Of a DNA stretch of 33,924 nt, positions 1,218 to 12,471 are shown one piece after another. Under the pieces are notes generated by a model, which saw nothing but the letters and a program-made list of their open reading frames with translations, was not told the DNA's origin and made no database searches. Position 1 is the stretch's first letter. Each line of letters starts with the position of its first letter. Source of the DNA: a virus; IMG/VR virus record IMGVR_UViG_3300035662_000096, positions 1 to 33,924 of that record; one strand, written 5' to 3'. The position numbers were made by a program, and so were the translations under genes.

Positions 1218-4200
1218 GTGACGCCACGCAACACCACTCCCGAAGGATTCCGCACCGCGGCTTACCTGGCGACAAAAGCTCGCCTCGACGCCACAGCCCG
1301 CAGCCGCACCGGTAAAACAGCCCGCGGCGTCGATTGCAACCCACCCAACGTCAAATGTGGCGGCCGTTGCATCCCACCCAACTGGGATTGCCGCCTAGAG
1401 GGCAAGGGCCCTGACCCCCACCTGCGCGCCGTCCGCACCGACCCCGTCAGTGGCCTGGCCAACATCGAGCGCGGCGTCAAGCGCCTAGGCAAGGGCGTCC
1501 GCAAAGGCAGCTTCTCCGAGATCGAGGGCGGCAAGCGCGCCATTGTCCGCGGCATCGTCAAAGCCACCCCGGGCGACCTGCAGCGCAAGAAGGCCCTCCA
1601 AGCCCAGCTCGAGCGCCGCGCCGGCGGCATCGCCGCTGCTCTCGCTGTAGTCGGCTTCGGTCTGTTCACCCACAGCCAACTCAAGAAGGCCCCCTTCTAC
1701 CGCGACGGCGTGGGCCGCCAGATCGACGACGCCGTTGCTGCCGGCATCAACCGCATCCTGGATGCCACCCCGGGCATCCGCGGAGCTCGCGCTGAACGCC
1801 GGGCAGCTGGTGCCGCCACCGCCGGGGCTGCGGCAGCCCGCGCCGCCGGCGAAGCCGCCACGGGTCCGGAAGCACTCAGCGCCGCGCTACTCCGCACTCC
1901 CACCGAGCTCGAGCGCCGCGCCACCGACTACGGCAACGCCCGCGTGCTGCTCAATCGCGTCGGCGCTGTCGACGTTGATGCAGCCGGCCGCGGTGCCAAC
2001 GCAGAAACCTGGCGGCAGCAGAGTCTCGAAGCCTTCTGGAGCACCAAGCGCACCAACGCTGCCGGCGCCGGTGATGGCAGTACCTTCTCCGAGCCCGCCA
2101 CCCACGAGTATCTGTCGCGGCAGTTCGGCTTTCGCCTGGGCGCCAGTGCTTCAGATACCGACGTCCGCCGCCAACTCACAAGCGCGCTGAACCGCGAGGC
2201 CGCCAGTCTGCAGGCCCTCGCCCGTCAGCAAGGCGTCAACATCAACGACGCCACTCAGCGCAGCCGTTTCCTTAACCGCCTCGTCGGCCCCAGCACTGCC
2301 AACTTCCCCGAGAACGTTCGCGAACGCGCTGTCGGCAACCTGAATCAGATCCTCGGTGCCGCTCCGCGCACCCGGGAAGCCGCAGTGAGCCGAACCGAGC
2401 TCGCTAACCGCATCTACCGCGAGACCCGAGACGGTTTCGACCAGTACTTCGGCCGCATCGCTGACGAAGTGCGCCAGACCCCGGGCGTCGCCATGCCCAC
2501 CGAGCAGCGCCGCGCCGGCTACAGCGACTTGCTCAACAGCGCCCGCATCGGCCACTCCCGCTACCTAGCCCAGCGCCTTGCAAAGCCCGATAACGTCACT
2601 AGCCGCATCGGGCAAGGCCTCAGCGACGCCATCTCCAAGGAGTACTTCGCTCGCCAGGTAAACGGAAGCAGCACTTTTAGCCTTTCGGATCGGGAGACGC
2701 GCACCGCTGCCTCCGAGCTCGCCGGTCGCGACATCACCGGCCTAGCTGATGCCACCCGCTACCTGCAGCAAAACGGCTTCGAGCGCCTCGTGCCCGTCCG
2801 TGCCGCAGCTCAACCCGCCACCGGAATCCGCGCTGCAGCTTCGGCTACCCCACCCCGAGTACGCCGCAGCTCCCAAGCACAGATCACCGACCTCGCCCGC
2901 TCCCTCCGCGAAGCCGCCCAGCGCCGCGGCGAGACCATGAGCCTCGAGGCCTCTTACCGCGCCGCCCGCTCCGAAATCACCCGCCGCCAACGCGGTGACG
3001 CCCGCATCGACGCCGAGGGAAAGCCCTGCGGCGCCTCGCACATCCCTAAGGCACACGAGTGCCGGAAGAGCGGAGGCGCCGCTGCAGCCGCACAGCCCAC
3101 CGAGAGCGGTAAGCCCTCGGCCCGCACCGGTGCAGCCCTAGCCGCCGCAGCCGCCGGCGCTGCTCTGACCGTCGGTGGCCTCCTCGCCTACAAGCAGCGC
3201 CAAACGCTGGTGCCGTCCCTCAGCCAGAAAGCCATCCGAGGCCTCTCGGCTCCACAGGTCAAAGAGGGCCTCGACAAGTTGCCTGAGAAGTTCCGCGATC
3301 CTGCGCGTCAGTTAGTCGGCGATGCCAAGCTCGCCGCCGCCCACATGGCGCTCCGTGCTCAGGGCTCGCAGATTCGTGCTGTCGACATCAAGAACAACTT
3401 CTCCACCTGGGTGACCCCCAACGGCACACACCTTTCGGTGGGGTCCATCGGCGACAGCCTTCTGACTTTTGGTGCAGAGCGCAAAGGCAACGTCAGCAAG
3501 TTCCCTCAGTACGGCCTCGGCTTCACGATCGACAGCAAGTACGACGCTGCCGGTGGCATGCCCAGCGCCCAGGCCAAGCAGCTGATCCGCACAACCAAGG
3601 CGATGTACCAATCGCAACTGGAGATGCTCCCCGAGAACGCTGTCCTCTTCGCAGTCCCCCACAAGGACGATGGCAAAGGCGCCAAGCGTAAATCGATCTA
3701 CGAAGGCATGGGCTTCCAGGCCATCACTGGGTTGAAGACCGACCGCCTGTGGGCGCTGAAGAACCAGGGCAAGTTCACCAAGATCCCGGAGGAGCAGATG
3801 GGCTACATGGCGGGGCTGATCCGGGGAGACCGTGCCGACGCAGCTACAGGCAAACCCTGCGGTGCTTCTCACATACCCAAAGCACACAACTGCAGCAAGA
3901 CTGCTGGAGGCATAGCGACCGCAAAAAAGCCTAAAGAGGGTAGTAGCAATAAGCGCTTAGCCCTCGCCGCTGCCGCTGCCGGTGCTGCTGCCTTAGCGAT
4001 CACCGCCCCCGCATGGACACCAGCTGCCCAACGCATACTCAATAACGCGAAGCCATTCGATAAGAACAACCCCCCTCAGGGAGCCAAATACCTCACCGAG
4101 GGCGTTAGCGGCCGCACCTGGATCTCGCAGGACGATAAGTACGTAATTAAGACGCCTAAAGGTAAAGTAGATAAAGCAGCGTTCGCTAACGAGGTAAACA

Positions 4201-4664
4201 CACAGAACGCCCTGTACGCTGCAGGTATCAGCGTTCCTAAAATCCACAACGCAGATCCGACTAAAGGCGTAGTCATGATGGACTACCTAAAAGGCTACGA
4301 CACTGTTAAATCGCTTACATCTGAGCAGCGCGGTAAAGCTGTACAAGGAGCTTTACGTGAAGTAGAAAAGATGCACCGTCTAGGCTATTCCCATGGTGAT
4401 CTACACATGGGTAATGTCCTAACTAAAGGCAATGACGTAAAGCTAATCGACTTCGGTAATGCCGGCGCTACAGCTAAAAACGGGTTATCTGATATTAACA
4501 GCTTACTAAGCGCAGCAAAAGACACGAATACGCCGCTATACACCGCAATGGTAAACCGCAAAAAAGCACTACAAACAAAGATAAGCAAAGGAGAAGCACT
4601 TACTCAAAAAGACTTGCTAGCGTTTCACGAAGCAGTACGTCAAGACTTACGGCGTTCCACCTAA
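1218..4664 (+). CDS. Giant modular head-associated protein with repeated Cys tags, acetyltransferase-like and kinase-like domains
   Basis: 1148 residues from a GTG start, 3 bases after portal. Three modules are visible, each opened by a cysteine tag with identical spacing and a nearby Ala-rich hydrophobic stretch. Module 1: C40, C47, C51, C58; hydrophobic ~135-151; then a long helical Ala/Arg-rich region to ~600. Module 2: C604 and C615; hydrophobic ~637-658; then ~660-870 with a YEGMGF motif near 828 that recalls the end of GNAT acetyltransferases. Module 3: C881 and C892; hydrophobic ~913-935; then a kinase-like domain ~955-1148 with K978, E992, HGDLHMGN (D1061, N1066) and DFG (D1078). DNA for module 3 is AT-richer than the rest. 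It sits between portal and MuF and overlaps MuF by one base (TAATG), which suggests a virion or ejected protein. The overall function is unknown. The kinase call is fairly strong and the GNAT call weak. Confidence 0.8.
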   Translation: MTPRNTTPEGFRTAAYLATKARLDATARSRTGKTARGVDCNPPNVKCGGRCIPPNWDCRLEGKGPDPHLRAVRTDPVSGLANIERGVKRLGKGVRKGSFSEIEGGKRAIVRGIVKATPGDLQRKKALQAQLERRAGGIAAALAVVGFGLFTHSQLKKAPFYRDGVGRQIDDAVAAGINRILDATPGIRGARAERRAAGAATAGAAAARAAGEAATGPEALSAALLRTPTELERRATDYGNARVLLNRVGAVDVDAAGRGANAETWRQQSLEAFWSTKRTNAAGAGDGSTFSEPATHEYLSRQFGFRLGASASDTDVRRQLTSALNREAASLQALARQQGVNINDATQRSRFLNRLVGPSTANFPENVRERAVGNLNQILGAAPRTREAAVSRTELANRIYRETRDGFDQYFGRIADEVRQTPGVAMPTEQRRAGYSDLLNSARIGHSRYLAQRLAKPDNVTSRIGQGLSDAISKEYFARQVNGSSTFSLSDRETRTAASELAGRDITGLADATRYLQQNGFERLVPVRAAAQPATGIRAAASATPPRVRRSSQAQITDLARSLREAAQRRGETMSLEASYRAARSEITRRQRGDARIDAEGKPCGASHIPKAHECRKSGGAAAAAQPTESGKPSARTGAALAAAAAGAALTVGGLLAYKQRQTLVPSLSQKAIRGLSAPQVKEGLDKLPEKFRDPARQLVGDAKLAAAHMALRAQGSQIRAVDIKNNFSTWVTPNGTHLSVGSIGDSLLTFGAERKGNVSKFPQYGLGFTIDSKYDAAGGMPSAQAKQLIRTTKAMYQSQLEMLPENAVLFAVPHKDDGKGAKRKSIYEGMGFQAITGLKTDRLWALKNQGKFTKIPEEQMGYMAGLIRGDRADAATGKPCGASHIPKAHNCSKTAGGIATAKKPKEGSSNKRLALAAAAAGAAALAITAPAWTPAAQRILNNAKPFDKNNPPQGAKYLTEGVSGRTWISQDDKYVIKTPKGKVDKAAFANEVNTQNALYAAGISVPKIHNADPTKGVVMMDYLKGYDTVKSLTSEQRGKAVQGALREVEKMHRLGYSHGDLHMGNVLTKGNDVKLIDFGNAGATAKNGLSDINSLLSAAKDTNTPLYTAMVNRKKALQTKISKGEALTQKDLLAFHEAVRQDLRRST

Positions 4665-5527
4665 TGCAACTCCTTGAGCGCTACAACGCCGCCCTGCGTC
4701 GCTCCGAGGACGTCTCCATCGCCCAGCTCAATCGCATCCTCGACAGCAGCTTCAATCGCCTCCTCCGCCGCACCCGCATTCAGCTGCGCAGCGGCACGCC
4801 AGCCGCCGACCGCAACGTCGTTCTCCTCCAAGAGTTCCGCCAGCTGATCCCCGCCTTCCGCCCGGACCGCACTGACGGCTACGACCGTGTCCTACGTAGC
4901 CTCCTGCGCAGCTCCGAACGCAGTGGCACCGGCGTCGCCCGAGAACTTCTGCGCGACATCGCCCCCGGCCGCCGGCGCATCGACGTTTCCATCCCCATCG
5001 AGGCCACCGTGGCCGCTGCAGCTCAGGCCCGTGGCTACCTCCGCCGCCACGGTGAAGCTTTTGCCACCACCGCCACCGAGCTCGTCGCCCAGGGCATCGC
5101 CGAAGGCCGCCCCACCGACGCCATCACCAACGACCTGCGCCTGCGCCTCGGTGTTGTGAAATCGAGGGCGGACGTGATCACCCGCACGGAATCACTTCGT
5201 GCCTACAACGCCGCCAGCAATCAGTACTACGCAGCGAACGGCATCGATCTCGTGATGTGGTACGCCACCAGCGACGATCGAACCTGCCCCGTCTGCAATG
5301 CCCGGGCGGGCCGCATCTACAAGCGTGCTAGTACAAACGCACCGGCGCACCCGCGCTGCCGCTGCTACCTAGCACCCTGGGACCCCGAGATTGCCGCCAT
5401 CGACCCCGAGTACGCATCCCTACCCCGCCGCCACCGCGAAGAAGTCTCCCGGGTAGCGACCGTCGGCCCTGCTGACCTCAACAAAGCCGCAGTATTCGAG
5501 CAGTTCGCCCCTCAGCCATTCGATTGA
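4664..5527 (+). CDS. Phage head morphogenesis protein, Mu gpF-like (MuF)
   Basis: 287 residues; the ATG overlaps the previous stop (TAATG at 4662-4666), implying translational coupling. The C-terminal third carries the MuF signature: VITRTESLRAYN, a WYAT..DRTCPVC segment (C208, C211), and an HPRCRC segment (H229, C232, C234), which together resemble a small metal-binding site. The N-terminal ~150 residues are helical. MuF proteins are minor head proteins made next to portal and needed for head assembly or carried inside the head. In some phages MuF is fused to toxin or enzyme domains; here it is not, but the preceding gene in the same unit carries enzyme-like domains. The stop codon TGA shares the palindrome TGATCA with the stop of the convergent gene at 5528-5767. 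Confidence 0.9.
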   Translation: MQLLERYNAALRRSEDVSIAQLNRILDSSFNRLLRRTRIQLRSGTPAADRNVVLLQEFRQLIPAFRPDRTDGYDRVLRSLLRSSERSGTGVARELLRDIAPGRRRIDVSIPIEATVAAAAQARGYLRRHGEAFATTATELVAQGIAEGRPTDAITNDLRLRLGVVKSRADVITRTESLRAYNAASNQYYAANGIDLVMWYATSDDRTCPVCNARAGRIYKRASTNAPAHPRCRCYLAPWDPEIAAIDPEYASLPRRHREEVSRVATVGPADLNKAAVFEQFAPQPFD

Positions 5528-5854: not shown

Positions 5855-6580
5855 ATGCCCGCCACCGCCCGCCGCTCCAAATCCGAGGCCTACGAGAAGG
5901 GCATCCGCGAAGGCCGCGCCATGGCCGCCCGCTCCCGCAACATCGAGCCCGAGGAGGGCGAAGAGGAAGAAGAGGAGATGGACATGGCCATGCAGCCTGG
6001 CTATTCACGCAAGCGCAGCGCTAAGGGCGCCAAGGCGACCAAGGCGCCCATGGATGGCGCCTACGGCAAGAAGCCCATGGACGCCGAGTGCGGTTGCAGC
6101 AGCAAAAAGGGTGGCAAATGTGATGGCAACTGCGGCTCGATGCGCAAGCGCGGCGACTCGCTCAGCCCCCTGGAGTACCTCGATGCCTGCGAGCTCGGCA
6201 TTCAGGACCGCAGCACCACCTACATCCGCGCCCGCCTCGACGCCGCTGAGCGTCTGGACCTGAAGTGTGGCAAAGGCTCCATCTCCGAGGGCGAAAAGTG
6301 CACCAAAGGTGCGGCGCAGAAGGTAAACCCTGTTCAAAAAGTGGTGCGAGCCTATAAGCGCAATCGTGCGAACAGCCGAGCAGCACAGGCTGAGATTAAA
6401 GCTATGAATCCTAAGTGGAAGAAACAGTACGAAAAAGCGAAAGCTAAAGGAGCTTCACGTCAGGAGCTGACTAATCTTTCCATTAAACAAGCAGGGGAAA
6501 TAGACAAAATCCTACGAAAAAACACCTCTAATGTATGGGCGGATGGCTTCTCCTCCAGCTCCAGCACCTACGACGTCTGA
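5855..6580 (+). CDS. Cysteine-tagged basic protein of the head accessory cluster, function unknown
   Basis: 241 residues from ATG 5855. The frame extends up to a TTG at 5783, but those extra codons lie in the divergent intergenic region, so I use the ATG. Order of features: basic N-terminus; a run of acidic residues ~31-41; Lys/Ala-rich stretch; a Cys cluster (C79, C81, C89, C93); helix; then the tag RLDLKCGKGSISEGEKCTKG with C138 and C149; a Lys-rich helical C-terminal region; and a terminal NVWADGF peptide (W228). The tag is almost identical to that of the next gene, and its Cys spacing matches the 1148-residue protein. DNA from ~6340 to 6540 is AT-richer than its flanks, suggesting recombined sequence. 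No enzyme motif seen. A DNA-interacting or head-internal protein is possible but unproven. Confidence 0.7.
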   Translation: MPATARRSKSEAYEKGIREGRAMAARSRNIEPEEGEEEEEEMDMAMQPGYSRKRSAKGAKATKAPMDGAYGKKPMDAECGCSSKKGGKCDGNCGSMRKRGDSLSPLEYLDACELGIQDRSTTYIRARLDAAERLDLKCGKGSISEGEKCTKGAAQKVNPVQKVVRAYKRNRANSRAAQAEIKAMNPKWKKQYEKAKAKGASRQELTNLSIKQAGEIDKILRKNTSNVWADGFSSSSSTYDV

Positions 6581-6583
6581 GCC

Positions 6584-7327
6584 ATGACCCTCACTCCCGG
6601 CACCCTCCGTCTCGACCTCAAATGTGGCCGCGGATCCATCTCCGAGGGCGAAAAGTGCACCAAAGGTGCCGCGCAGAAGGTACAGCCACAGCAGTACAAG
6701 CGCGGCAACGTCACCCCTAACACCAAAGCCGCCCAGCGTCTCCGCACCGCTGCAAACGTCGCAGCGGCCGCCGGTGCCCTCGCGCCTCTCGCTGGTCTGG
6801 CCGCAGGCGGCGGTTCAGGCCTGGTCGCCGGTTTTGGCGCGGCCAGCACTGCGTTCAAAGCAGCCGGCGCCCTCAACACCTTTGCCAAAGCACAAGAAAC
6901 CAGCAGTGCAGCAGGCAAAGCTCGCCTGAAGAAGGAAGCCACCTTCCGCGCAATCAGCGCAGGCGGCAGCGCCATCGGCACCGCCGTAGGCGCCGCCTCC
7001 ATGGCCCGGACAGCACGTCGCTCCAACCAGCGCGCCTCCTTGGAGCGCCTCTATCGCGGCCCCTCCGCCCGGCGCCCACCCGGTCTCGACTCCGAGGCAG
7101 CTGACGCAGAGTCCCGCATGGACCCCCGCGGCACCAAAGTCGCTGCCATGGAAGCTGAGCTTGCCAAGCAAGCCGCAGCCCGCGGCCTTAAGGGCGCCCG
7201 CGCCGAGGCCTACATCTACGGCACCCTCAACAAGATGGGCTACAAGCAGGGCAGCAAGACCACCCGCAAGGGCGCTGCCAAAGCCAAGCGCAGCGACTCC
7301 ATCTGGGCCGCCGGCTTCGACGCATGA
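6584..7327 (+). CDS. Cysteine-tagged Ala/Gly-rich hydrophobic protein, function unknown
   Basis: 247 residues; ATG 3 bases after the previous stop. The N-terminus MTLTPGTLRLDLKCG runs directly into the CG-x3-I-x5-C tag (C14, C25), followed by a long Ala/Gly-rich hydrophobic region ~47-83 that could span or insert into a membrane, then basic helices. It ends exactly at DSIWAAGFDA, matching tags in both neighbouring genes. The order tag then hydrophobic segment then basic domain repeats the module plan of the 1148-residue protein, here as a free-standing unit. Its stop overlaps the next start (ATGA). No enzymatic motif seen. A virion-internal or membrane-penetrating protein is a reasonable guess only. 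Confidence 0.7.
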   Translation: MTLTPGTLRLDLKCGRGSISEGEKCTKGAAQKVQPQQYKRGNVTPNTKAAQRLRTAANVAAAAGALAPLAGLAAGGGSGLVAGFGAASTAFKAAGALNTFAKAQETSSAAGKARLKKEATFRAISAGGSAIGTAVGAASMARTARRSNQRASLERLYRGPSARRPPGLDSEAADAESRMDPRGTKVAAMEAELAKQAAARGLKGARAEAYIYGTLNKMGYKQGSKTTRKGAAKAKRSDSIWAAGFDA

Positions 7328-8061
7328 ACCTCACCCCCGCGACGCTGCGCCTCCGCTCTGACGCTCGCGGGGTGGTTTTCGTCGACGCCAAACTGCACGC
7401 CGCCGTCAAAGCCGAGGCCAGACGCAAGTTCAAGATCTATCCGAGCGCCTACGCCAACGCTTGGATGGTCCGCGAGTACAAAAAGCGCGGCGGCACCTTC
7501 CGCAACGACGCCCTCGACAAGTGGTTCAAGGAGAAATGGGTGCGCATGAGCGGCACCGGCCGCATCCTCGGCCCTTGCGGCGACCGCACCGAGGGCGAAG
7601 GCAAGCCCAAATGCCTCCCGGCCGCCAAAGCCATGGCGCTCTCCCCCGCTGAGCGCCGCCGCCTCGTCGCCCGCAAGCGCCGCGAAGACCCACGCAAGGA
7701 GCGCACCGGCGCCCCCGTCATGGTGAGCTCCAAAACCGACGTCTGGGCAGCCGGCTTTGATGCCGAGGACGGCAAGAAGTACACCAAAAAGGTCCGCGAC
7801 CCCGAGACCGGCCGCACCCGCACCGTCCGCTACGGCGCAAAGGGCTACAAAATCGCCCCGGGCACCGACAAGGGCGACCGCTACTGCGCTCGCAGCTTCG
7901 GTGACATGAAATCCGAGGGCTACAACTGCGCCGGCGCCGAGCGCAACACCCCGCTCTGCCTCTCCCGTGCTAAATGGCGCTGCTCCGGTAAGACCAGCCG
8001 CCGCGACGAGGGCCTTACGCCGGCAACCCTTCGGCACCCCTCTATAGCCCTCGTAGCCTGA
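7324..8061 (+). CDS. Basic Cys-containing phage protein (DUF5872-like), function unknown
   Basis: 245 residues, start overlapping the previous stop (ATGA at 7324-7327). The N-terminal ~75 residues (AYANAWMVREYKKRGG, then a GxW-rich stretch) resemble a small basic domain I associate with DUF5872. Next comes a CGDRTEGEGKPKC segment, a basic helix, and SKTDVWAAGFDAEDGKKY with W141. The C-terminal region is Cys-rich (YCARSFGDMKSEGYNC, then PLCLSRAKWRCSGKTSRR) and may bind zinc. LTPATLR occurs at both ends (residues 3-9 and 231-237) with different codons. It shares these tags with the two preceding genes. High positive charge suggests nucleic-acid contact. Role unknown. Confidence 0.7.
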   Translation: MNLTPATLRLRSDARGVVFVDAKLHAAVKAEARRKFKIYPSAYANAWMVREYKKRGGTFRNDALDKWFKEKWVRMSGTGRILGPCGDRTEGEGKPKCLPAAKAMALSPAERRRLVARKRREDPRKERTGAPVMVSSKTDVWAAGFDAEDGKKYTKKVRDPETGRTRTVRYGAKGYKIAPGTDKGDRYCARSFGDMKSEGYNCAGAERNTPLCLSRAKWRCSGKTSRRDEGLTPATLRHPSIALVA

Positions 8062-9348: not shown

Positions 9349-9564
9349 TCAAATATCTTTTACAAGCTCTTGCAGCCTTACGTCATAGACCTCGCTCAGA
9401 GCTATCAGCTTCATCACTGAAACCTCTATTTCACCTTTCTCTAACCGCGAATATGCAGCTTGACTAATCCCCAATCTCTCTGCAACTTCAAACTGCGTAA
9501 GCTTGTGGTACTCCCGTAGCGCTCTGATACGCCTACACAAAGTCAGCTGCCTATGAATCGCCAA
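9349..9564 (-). CDS. XRE/Cro-CI-family helix-turn-helix regulator
   Basis: 71 residues if started at TTG (complement of 9562-9564). The frame stays open further upstream to an ATG at 9636, but that extension lies opposite the start of the 9627 gene and looks like antisense, so I keep the shorter form. Helices ~8-20 lead into a clear HTH: LTQFEVAERLGISQAAYSRL (residues 22-41), then EKGEIEVSVMKLIALSEVYD, the usual XRE fold. Such proteins bind operator DNA as dimers. It has no C-terminal oligomerisation or peptidase domain, unlike CI/LexA. It is convergent with the 8083 gene (shared TGATCA) and divergent from 9627, so it may control the protease/capsid genes or itself. A single regulator inside the head operon is unusual. 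Confidence 0.75.
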   Translation of the reverse strand: MAIHRQLTLCRRIRALREYHKLTQFEVAERLGISQAAYSRLEKGEIEVSVMKLIALSEVYDVRLQELVKDI

Positions 9565-9626
9565 GTGCTGTAACCGCTCTGTGCATAAACCTAACCAAAC
9601 GCACAAGAACCGGTAAGCTCTTAAGC

Positions 9627-10904
9627 ATGGAAACATCAGTATCCAGGTACGACTTCGCTCCCATAACTGGCAGCGAGACCACCCCCGAGGGCTACCTCCG
9701 GGTCTGGTGCCGTGCTGCCCGCTCGGGCACACAGCTCTACCGCCGTGCTGATGGCTCCCAAGTCCGCGAATACCGCCCTCCGGAGGAGGTCAGTAACCCG
9801 GACTCCCTCTCCACGTTCGGCATGAAGCCCGCAACGTGGGGTCACCCACCTGTTCTTCTCGACTCCGCCAACACCAAACAGTTCCAGGTCGGCTACTCCG
9901 GTAGCCAGGTCCGGTACAACGACGGTTTTGTCGAAGTCGCGCTCGTCGTCACCGACGCCGACGCCATCGAGAAGATCAAGCGCAAGGATGCCACCGAGGT
10001 ATCCGCCGGCTACAAGGTCGACTTCGACCCAACCCCCGGGATCACCCCCGAGGGCGAAGAGTACGCCGGCGTCCAGCGCAACATCCGGGTGAACCACATC
10101 GCCATTGTCCCCCGCGGCCGGGCTGGCCCGGAGGTACGACTCTTGCTCGACCGAATGGATGCAGCCGATGCTGTAGCCGCCTTCCCCGAGCACGAAATGG
10201 CGCCCCAGTCCAGTTCAACTGCATCTCCCGTTATGGCAACCGTCAAACTCGACGGCCTGGAGATCGATCTGCCCGCAGAAGCAGCCAGCGCGGTCCAGTC
10301 CTACTCCCGGGACATGGGGCGCCAACTGCAAGCACTCACCACCGAGCGCGACGAGCTTGCCACCAAGCTCGATTCTCTGCAGGCCGACTTCGACGCTCTG
10401 GCCTACGACAAAGAGGCCGCTGAAGGTCGCGCCGACGCTCTCGAGGAGCAGCTCGCTGCTTCCGGTGAAGCCCGCATCGATACCGCCGAGCTCGACCAGC
10501 TCGTCGCCGAGCGCCTCGCCACCCTGCAGCGACTCGCCCCCGCGTTCACCGAGGACTTCAAGTTCGACGGCATCGACGACGCCTCCCTGTACGTCCAGGC
10601 CTTCGAGAACCTCACCGGCTCCGCCCCGCGCGAAGACGCCGAACCCGCCTACATCCAAGGCGTGGTTGAAGGCATCCTCGCCGCCCGCGCTGACGCCGAA
10701 GGCGACGAAGACGCCGACTCCGAGGACGACTCCGCCGAAGGCGACGAGGAGACCAAAGAGGACGCCGATTCCGACCGCGCCGACAGCACCACCGCCCTGC
10801 GTGACGCGCTGAAAGGTGCCGGCCAATCCACCGCCAACCCCATCGCTGCCTACCGCAGCCGCACGGTTGACGCCTGGAAACGTCCCCTCACCGCCACCAA
10901 GTAA
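9627..10904 (+). CDS. Prohead protease fused to scaffold (DUF2213 family)
   Basis: 425 residues. The N-terminal ~175 residues match the DUF2213 pattern: EGYLRVWCRAARSGTQLYRR, PPEEV near 51, a WGHPPVLL segment (H73), VSAGYKVDF (S126) and VNHIAIVPRGRAGPEVRLLL (H157). H73 and S126 are candidate catalytic residues of a herpes/HK97-type (U35-like) serine protease. After ~210 comes a coiled coil rich in Glu, Ala, Leu and Gln (DMGRQLQALTTERDELATKL onward) and a very acidic stretch ~350-395, then a Lys/Arg end. This is the layout of a scaffold that is cleaved away during head maturation. It precedes the decoration and capsid genes by 12 bases. The start is the ATG at 9627; no strong ribosome-binding site is visible. 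Confidence 0.85.
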   Translation: METSVSRYDFAPITGSETTPEGYLRVWCRAARSGTQLYRRADGSQVREYRPPEEVSNPDSLSTFGMKPATWGHPPVLLDSANTKQFQVGYSGSQVRYNDGFVEVALVVTDADAIEKIKRKDATEVSAGYKVDFDPTPGITPEGEEYAGVQRNIRVNHIAIVPRGRAGPEVRLLLDRMDAADAVAAFPEHEMAPQSSSTASPVMATVKLDGLEIDLPAEAASAVQSYSRDMGRQLQALTTERDELATKLDSLQADFDALAYDKEAAEGRADALEEQLAASGEARIDTAELDQLVAERLATLQRLAPAFTEDFKFDGIDDASLYVQAFENLTGSAPREDAEPAYIQGVVEGILAARADAEGDEDADSEDDSAEGDEETKEDADSDRADSTTALRDALKGAGQSTANPIAAYRSRTVDAWKRPLTATK

Positions 10905-11537: not shown

Positions 11538-11553
11538 TCCCGGAGCCCCTCCC

Positions 11554-12471
11554 ATGACCACCGAAATCCGTAACGACTCGGTCGGCCTCTTTCTTGCCCG
11601 CGAGCTGGAATCCATCCTGGCCCGCGCGTTTGAAGTCGAGTACGCCGACATCAAGTACAGCACTGTCATCCCCGTCTCCTCCGAGGTCGGCAACGGCGCT
11701 GATTCCTTCACCTATCGCGTCTTCGACAAGCAAGGCTCGATGAAGGTGATCGGCGACAAAGCCCAGGACCTGCCCCGCGCTGACGTGCTCCGCAAGGAAG
11801 TCACCCACCCGGTTCGCAGCCTCGGCGCTTCCTTCGCTTACACCGTCCAGGAAACCCGTGCCGCCGCCATGGTGCCCGGCATGAACCTGGAGCAGCGCCG
11901 CGCCAACGCCGTGCGCCGCGCCTACGAGGAGAAAGTGCAGGAGATCGCCTACTTCGGCGATGCCCCCTCCGGCATGAAGGGCTTCTTCAACAACAACCAG
12001 GTGGACAAGCTGGTGCCGGACCATTGGTTCGACACCGCGGACATCACCACCGACGAGATGCTGCAACTGCTCAACGAGCCCGCCACGCGGATCGTGCAGA
12101 ACAGCAACATGAAGGAGATGCCCAACACGATGCTGGTGCCCTACAACGTGTACCGCATCATCTCCACCACTCCGCGCAGCACCACCTCCGACACCACGGT
12201 GATGGAGTTCTTCCTGCGCACCAACCCCATGATCACCGCCATCGAGCCCATCAACGAGCTCGAGGCCTCCAAGTCCGGCGGCGTCCTCTCGAAGGACCGC
12301 GTGATCTGCTACGACCGCAGCCCCGACAAGCTGCAGCTGCACATCCCGCAGCCCCTCGAGTTCTTCCCGCCCGTGCGCACCGAGCTCGAGTTCTCCGTCG
12401 CCGCTCATGCTCGCATCGGCGGCCTCGCGCTCTACTACCCCAAGAGCGCCATCGTGCTCGAGAAGGCCTGA
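11554..12471 (+). CDS. Major capsid protein (DUF2184 / HK97-fold)
   Basis: 305 residues from ATG 11554, which has GGAG at 11542-11545. The open frame extends upstream to 11473 but that part overlaps the preceding gene. Recognisable features: an N-terminal helix FLARELESILARAFEVEYAD, the E-loop-like VIPVSSEVGNGADSFTYRVF, the long spine-helix region EQRRANAVRRAYEEKVQEIA followed by FGDAPSGMKGFFNN, then LVPYNVYRIISTTP and a C-terminal HARIGGLALYYPKSAI. This is the DUF2184-type capsid pattern. It builds the icosahedral shell. The strong codon bias (C/G-ending) fits a highly expressed gene. The cognate protease/scaffold lies two genes upstream. A 6-bp hairpin (AGGCCT at 12464-12469 and 12475-12480) brackets the stop codon, without a U tract. 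Confidence 0.9.
   Translation: MTTEIRNDSVGLFLARELESILARAFEVEYADIKYSTVIPVSSEVGNGADSFTYRVFDKQGSMKVIGDKAQDLPRADVLRKEVTHPVRSLGASFAYTVQETRAAAMVPGMNLEQRRANAVRRAYEEKVQEIAYFGDAPSGMKGFFNNNQVDKLVPDHWFDTADITTDEMLQLLNEPATRIVQNSNMKEMPNTMLVPYNVYRIISTTPRSTTSDTTVMEFFLRTNPMITAIEPINELEASKSGGVLSKDRVICYDRSPDKLQLHIPQPLEFFPPVRTELEFSVAAHARIGGLALYYPKSAIVLEKA

Follow-up and report, generated by a model that had tools for sequence, protein, structure and literature searches.

Terminal peptides shared by unrelated head-cluster proteins of an uncultured phage: candidate capsid-targeting signals beside a predicted head-protease site

In phage T4, otherwise different head cargo (IPI-III, Alt) has short terminal targeting sequences in common. 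The first 10 residues of IPIII are enough for head targeting, with processing set at residues 8 and 10, and the propeptide is cut off by gp21 at the three-residue motif L/I-x-E, the corresponding motif of phiKZ being S/A-x-E (PMC9026906). Head processing in phiKZ and SPN3US is characterized by the enrichment of a short motif in head proteins only, by self-cleavage of the protease and by ejection proteins (PMC9026906, PMC10052503). Their propeptides are mostly N-terminal and long, the P1 residue is Glu, and in SPN3US the P1' residue is Ser (PMC10052503). Encapsulins load unrelated cargo into an HK97-fold shell by means of terminal peptides, for example LTVGSLRR (PMC5959871). The polyvalent proteins of phages are multi-domain proteins of the head neighbourhood, typically with a metallopeptidase processing domain, whose enzyme domains are thought to be injected (Iyer et al. 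2017, PMC5512222).

The window analysed here is the whole of a 33.9-kb phage fragment (33,924 nt, IMG/VR record IMGVR_UViG_3300035662_000096), and its features lie on the plus strand unless stated otherwise. It encodes, in this order, part of a portal protein (81–1214), a 1148-residue fusion protein (1218–4664), a MuF-type minor head protein (4664–5527), three genes named here by their start positions (5855–6580, 6584–7327 and 7324–8061), a virion structural protein of phrog_1645, a DUF2213 head maturation protease/scaffold (9627–10904), the PF09950 major capsid protein (11548–12471) and the tail genes. A helix-turn-helix-like ORF lies antisense just upstream of DUF2213 (9349–9732, minus strand), and Synechococcus phage S-CBS4 has a minus-strand gene annotated 'transcriptional regulator' at the matching place. 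S-CBS4 is the closest cultured relative by DNA search (64.5% over 14% of the query), because of which the host of these uncultured phages is probably a cyanobacterium; it has capsid genes in common with the window but lacks WAxGF. The proteins starting at 1218, 5855 and 6584 have no relative among 50,697 phages, and the 5855 protein has no Pfam or PHROG match. The motif survey covers 1.7 Mb of related phage DNA; because the contigs are mutually related, the counts depend on one another, and tests were therefore also run genome by genome.

The three consecutive genes to the right of MuF carry two short peptides in different arrangements. Gene 5855 encodes an acidic/basic Cys-rich N-domain, an RGD/SLSPLEYL joint, a Cys loop and an exchangeable body, and closes with the long-form C-terminal tag NVWADGFSSSSSTYDV (6530–6577), in which WADGF begins with W228 (6536) and the usual upstream R-x-D is missing (NTSNVWADGF). 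Gene 6584 begins with the header MTLTPGTLRLD (6584–6616), with R-x-D at its end, and continues through a Cys loop and Ala/Gly-rich helices to the short-form C-terminal tag RSDSIWAAGFDA (7289–7324), where WAAGF (7304) is followed by DA as the final two residues. Gene 7324 has the header MNLTPATLRLRSD (7324–7362), a DUF5872 module, an internal tag VWAAGFDA (7741–7764, with WAAGF from W141 at 7744), a mobile KWRCSGK module and a C-terminal RRD-EG-LTPATLR, that is, RRD followed by EGLTPATLRHPSIALVA (7999–8058). LTPxTLR is located at 6590, 7330 and 8014, and no further WAxGF or LTPxTLR is found in any frame of the window. The original prediction had placed both peptides exactly. Its statement that one peptide is written in different codons also holds, with tag regions 50–64% identical in DNA, and so does its claim of selection at the protein level, as the codons vary, the distance to the C-terminus is fixed, the bodies are unrelated and the tags are confined to head-cluster genes. 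It had overlooked the Cys-loop repeat, the R-x-D that closes the header and usually stands before the tag, the form of the tag with Tyr in place of Trp, and the position of the tag, mostly at the extreme C-terminus of many unrelated proteins. The Cys loop is present as LDLKCGKGSISEGEKCTKGAAQKV in gene 5855 (6254–6325) and as LDLKCGRGSISEGEKCTKGAAQKV in gene 6584 (6611–6682), the two 24-residue copies being 96% identical in amino acids and 89% in DNA.

Related phages carry the same peptides far more often than chance controls allow. Among the first 95 related loci there are 98 matches to WAxGF against 5 to the reversed FGxAW, and 32 to LTPxTLR against 0 reversed. The search for the motif in other proteins of related phages, which had been proposed as a check, located [WY]AxGF near the C-terminus of 109 distinct proteins: over all loci, 109 unique tails have it no more than 14 residues from the stop, compared with 3 for the reversed motif and 0–1 for five scrambles. 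Exactly 9 residues follow the motif in 57 of the 109 tails and exactly 2 in 48, giving two fixed-length forms, RRDS[IV]WAxGFxP (+2) and RRDS[VI][YW]AxGFSPELDQLAI (+9), both of which run to the stop codon. Across 91 unique DNA contexts the tag residues are constant and the third codon bases variable. LTPxTLR forms part of a longer N-terminal header of standard form, M-x-LTPxx[LVI]RxD, behind which a two-Cys loop is often present, and 77 unique N-termini match M-x(0-3)-L[TS]Pxx[LVIM]RxD. WAxGF copies are also seen near the N-termini of proteins in loci L062, L063, L081 and L097 (for example MTRTSSVWATGFAPTTTR and MSFWAQGFEPRTDR), showing that the tag apparently functions or persists at the other end too.

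With portal, MuF, DUF2213 and capsid genes placed on the loci, the tagged genes map between MuF and DUF2213, so that MuF forms the left border of the cluster. WAxGF matches in whole contigs are concentrated in the same interval, with few outliers: one inside a primase-like protein, one in an antisense frame and a third at G015:17800. A tag, header or Cys loop is found in 47 of 100 head-side genes from ten divergent loci and in none of 117 capsid-downstream genes from nine records. A host origin of the tag was rejected, since a search with the short tag through 84,980 genomes of bacteria and archaea yielded only two chance matches, both antisense to a transposase-like ORF.

The occurrence of short terminal peptides on otherwise unrelated head-cluster proteins (77 headers, 109 tags) is what is seen for T4 targeting sequences, and the LTPxxLRxD header, with about 11 residues and R-x-D at its end, has the size and layout of the T4 targeting peptide (PMC9026906). 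The sequences differ, however, as do the protease family, the presence of signals at both ends and the two fixed C-terminal forms; the phage is siphovirus-like and its exchangeable cargoes are probably many. Cleavage at L/I-x-E by gp21 is established for T4, whereas both targeting and cleavage at R-x-D are predicted here from sequence. Encapsulin cargo loading offers a further parallel, as terminal peptides are predicted here to bring unrelated cargo into a shell of the HK97 fold. LTPATLR and the encapsulin LTVGSLR share L-T-x-x-[ST]-L-R, which is taken as a lead only. The shell is that of a phage capsid protein (PF09950 Major_capside, 2.6e-55), with no encapsulin family in the Pfam scan of the window, and the peptide, unlike those of encapsulin systems, is mostly N-terminal with R-x-D behind it.

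The bodies between these standard ends are diverse. With their tags masked, the 113 tagged proteins group into 14 clusters, a number that is only approximate because one large cluster is chained through shared sub-modules. They include a DnaJ domain (Pfam E 4e-7), DUF5872, a GNAT-like protein recognized by eye and many Ala/Gly-rich helical proteins. A J-domain is followed directly by the tag at the end of head-cluster proteins in L139 (2400–3752, reverse complement), L013, L019, L023, L059, L062 and L149, suggesting that these tagged proteins may be injected factors that recruit DnaK. The same bodies are found alone and fused. The 6584 body has its own LTP header in the window; in L008 and L011 it is joined to the end of the 5855 N-domain. 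Fused and separate versions have a common joint, RRTDSALSPKAVRQDLKCGKG within L139_450 corresponding to gene starts such as MVLTPSSIRSDLKCGRG. Module joints end in R-x-D, as in TLRLD/LKCGKG, RRD/SIWAEGF, RRD/AEDGKKY, SRRD/GALTPGK, ARID/AEGKPCG, DRAD/AATGKPCG and RGD/SLSPLEYL.

The 1148-residue protein between portal and MuF has a similar construction, with a GNAT-like middle and a RIO/APH-type kinase C-terminus, its modules separated by R-x-D and Cys loops (from about 2991 and 3831); Pfam gave kinase-type matches only, the GNAT-like middle being called by eye. As a single polypeptide that combines several effector domains and whose gene lies amid virion genes, it corresponds to the description of a polyvalent protein. 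Unlike in polyvalent proteins, the modules of this locus mostly occur as small genes of their own, with end tags in common and R-x-D at the joints. The protease of the window belongs by sequence to DUF2213 (phrog_530), and its R-x-D specificity is a prediction. A kinase-like module is a stand-alone 500-residue protein in L139. A four-Cys variant, CxPPNxKCGGRCIPPNWDC, is located near the N-terminus of the fusion (around 1356) and recurs in relatives, with no R-x-D nearby.

Gene 7324 illustrates how a terminal tag can come to lie inside a protein. The DUF5872 module is a separate gene ending in VSSKTDTWAVGFxx and a stop in L048, L050 and L054; in most relatives, as in the window, it is fused to the next module and the tag is internal. 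L046 has kept both modules and lacks exactly eight residues, VWAAGFDA; the tag is therefore a separable unit outside either fold. The WAxGF of gene 7324 is, on these alignments, apparently the former C-terminal tag of the DUF5872 module, internalized by gene fusion. Random loss of the motif among homologues, which would have pointed to drift, is not what was found: WAxGF is kept in 22 of 24 aligned 7324-type proteins, one of the exceptions having WGTGF and the other lacking exactly the eight-residue unit. The KWRCSGK module is mobile in its own right and is preceded, depending on the phage, by DUF5872, a CWEGYVQAG...VPNCVP module, an IQxYAPVQLQPP segment or a bare header. In relatives it is followed by RRD-GALTPGK (RRD + GALTPGKSSA(W)), by a stop, or by RRD-A-EGKPCG..IPKAHKC with a Cys loop and a hydrophobic helix. 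The AlphaFold model of the 7324 protein has a pLDDT of 45, with low confidence around the tag (blocks 24–37).

R-x-D has the statistics of a head-protease site. With genes called by a simple longest-ORF method that includes a few spurious ORFs, as also for the per-genome tests and the head and tail counts, R-x-D-[SAG] ranks top of 400 a-x-b-[SAG] pairs in head proteins of ten loci (152 against 42.1 expected), whereas in tail genes it ranks 340 of 400 (20 against 30.0 expected). Per genome, it is enriched in 10 of 10 head sets (p ≤ 0.005) and in 0 of 9 tail sets at p < 0.05. The window itself has 20 sites in 8 head genes (4.8 expected) and 4 in 18 post-capsid genes (4.1 expected); the portal protein has sites at about 861–872 and 963–974. 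Composition and homologue redundancy were considered as sources of the enrichment; the shuffles and per-genome tests argue against both. A short motif overrepresented in the scaffold and other head proteins, and not in tail proteins, is what would be expected of head-protease substrates and parallels phiKZ and SPN3US, from which this locus differs in having Asp rather than Glu at P1 and Arg at P3. The capsid protein and tape measure have fewer R-x-D-[SAG] than expected; the N-terminal IRND of the capsid protein is conserved, but its next residue is mostly E, T or D and it was not counted as a site.

R-x-D lies exactly at −5 to −3 of the aromatic residue in 48 of 101 unique C-terminal tags, where about 0.9 would be expected, and another 38 have basic-(x)-Asp nearby; it also lies within 14 residues upstream of 196 of 260 Cys loops. 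Of the three tags in the window, two are without it, namely that of gene 5855 and the internal tag of gene 7324 (KTDVWAAGF, no exact R-x-D), and the header R-x-D is followed by Leu rather than Ser, Ala or Gly in 48 of 77 cases.

The protein in which R-x-D-[SAG] is most abundant is DUF2213 itself, with 276 sites against 33.7 expected in 44 homologues. The window protein is a clear member of the family (PF09979, 3e-41; phrog_530, 4.5e-85), is encoded directly upstream of the capsid genes and is the proposed R-x-D protease. An R-M-D-A site (10152–10163) lies just past its protease domain and an R-A-D-S site (10776–10787) in its hypervariable acidic linker, where R384, D386 and S387 stay unchanged in all 24 sequences within gap-filled surroundings. 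H73, S126 and H157, candidates for the His, Ser and His of an assemblin-like active site, are likewise invariant in 24 sequences, and blocks like theirs can be seen in further sequences; the model is too poor to place them. AlphaFold gave a pLDDT of 54 with low confidence at the R-x-D sites at 176 and 384, so that accessibility of the sites is only suggested, and the models of both 7324 and DUF2213 were too poor for fold searches or docking. DUF2213 ends in AWKRPLTATK, ten residues that do not vary among the 24 relatives and are a candidate for the capsid-binding tail of the scaffold.

Some other members of the family carry comparable signatures. The DUF2213 of S-CBS4 (42% identical) has 5 R-x-D-[SAG] against 0.5 expected and that of Pantoea phage LIET2 has 7 against 0.6, while that of the T1-like Shigella phage Shfl1 (L162, 6039–6998) prefers K-x-D-[SAG] (9 against 0.8 expected). 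The DUF2213 proteins of RCIP0063, Vibrio 99E28-2 and Susan have no [RK]-x-D enrichment. This is the pattern that would be expected of a head-protease motif changing between phages, as it does between T4 and phiKZ. The Shfl1 capsid protein has a single K-x-D-[SAG] site, K-Q-D26/A, which is a testable candidate for its maturation cut; the literature searched contained nothing usable on a published DUF2213 or T1 capsid cleavage site.

The explanation we consider best, with slightly better than even confidence, is that LTPxTLRxD and WAxGF are terminal capsid-targeting peptides, with R-x-D as the adjoining head-protease site, and act as the address peptides of head cargo. A fuller version, to which we give somewhat less than even weight, is a two-ended cleavable address system in which LTPxxLRxD headers and [WY]AxGF tails would load interchangeable proteins, with chaperone-like, kinase and acetyltransferase-like proteins and membrane helices as the candidate cargo, and DUF2213 would free them after R-x-D, its specificity differing from one DUF2213 phage to another (R-x-D in the present group, K-x-D in T1-like phages). 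The genes between MuF and DUF2213 would encode exchangeable bodies with standard ends, either an N-terminal header, often with a two-Cys loop and a hydrophobic Ala-rich helix, or a C-terminal [RK]xDS[IV][WY]AxGF followed by 2 or 9 residues, or both. During prohead assembly these ends would dock the cargo on the scaffold or the inner capsid. The DUF2213 protease would then cut after R-x-D, the position after Asp being inferred and the P1' residue being usually Ser, Ala or Gly; this cut would detach the address peptide from its cargo and split fused modules. The address peptides would leave, and the cargo would accompany the DNA and enter the cell on ejection.

The idea that the tag serves binding or cleavage in connection with the head protease or scaffold comes close to this explanation, and the part of it that makes WAxGF itself the cut site fares poorly. 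WAxGF does sit at a module junction in gene 7324, but its position varies (2 or 9 residues from the end, internal or N-terminal), a cut in the short form would remove only 2–4 residues, the expected substrates, capsid protein and DUF2213 protease, lack the motif, and it is the upstream R-x-D-[SAG] that has protease-site statistics; this reading is scarcely credible and was rejected. Docking without cleavage deserves more weight, even if we think it unlikely: WAxGF and LTPxTLR would dock on a protein of the head, be it scaffold, portal, MuF or the capsid interior, and persist on the mature protein, with the basic-x-Asp flank as part of the binding motif. The strong conservation of the tag to its final residues, its occurrence at N-terminal, internal and tandem positions, and the lack of R-x-D at internal copies and of exact R-x-D at half of the tags are all compatible with this, whereas R-x-D-[SAG] is enriched far from tags too, most of all in the DUF2213 linkers but also in the portal, and marks the joints at which fused modules match separate genes.

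Shared ancestry with recombination, the tagged genes being paralogues with replaced middles and their ends recombination points rather than signals, would account for the close DNA identity of the Cys loops of genes 5855 and 6584 and for the evident shuffling of bodies between headers. It is improbable as the sole cause, as the tag codons have diverged and the peptide is retained, the distance to the C-terminus is fixed and the tag moves independently of the header. There is an even slighter chance that the tags work inside the infected cell and not during assembly, by membrane targeting, as a degradation signal or as a ligand of a host protein. Hydrophobic Ala-rich helices in many bodies fit such a role and the J-domain and kinase bodies suggest host targets, yet the tags are strictly confined to the head cluster and the bacterial and archaeal genomes contain no convincing C-terminal tag.

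If terminal targeting with cleavage at R-x-D is correct, the tags would provide a sequence rule that predicts the head-borne, injected proteins of uncultured phages, which are hard to learn without virions. An address peptide cleaved from the C-terminus would widen the paradigm set by T4. A cleavage rule would also be predicted for the DUF2213 head proteases, a family found in 1,436 phage records including T1-like phages, and the contents of the head would become testable in cultured relatives such as these.
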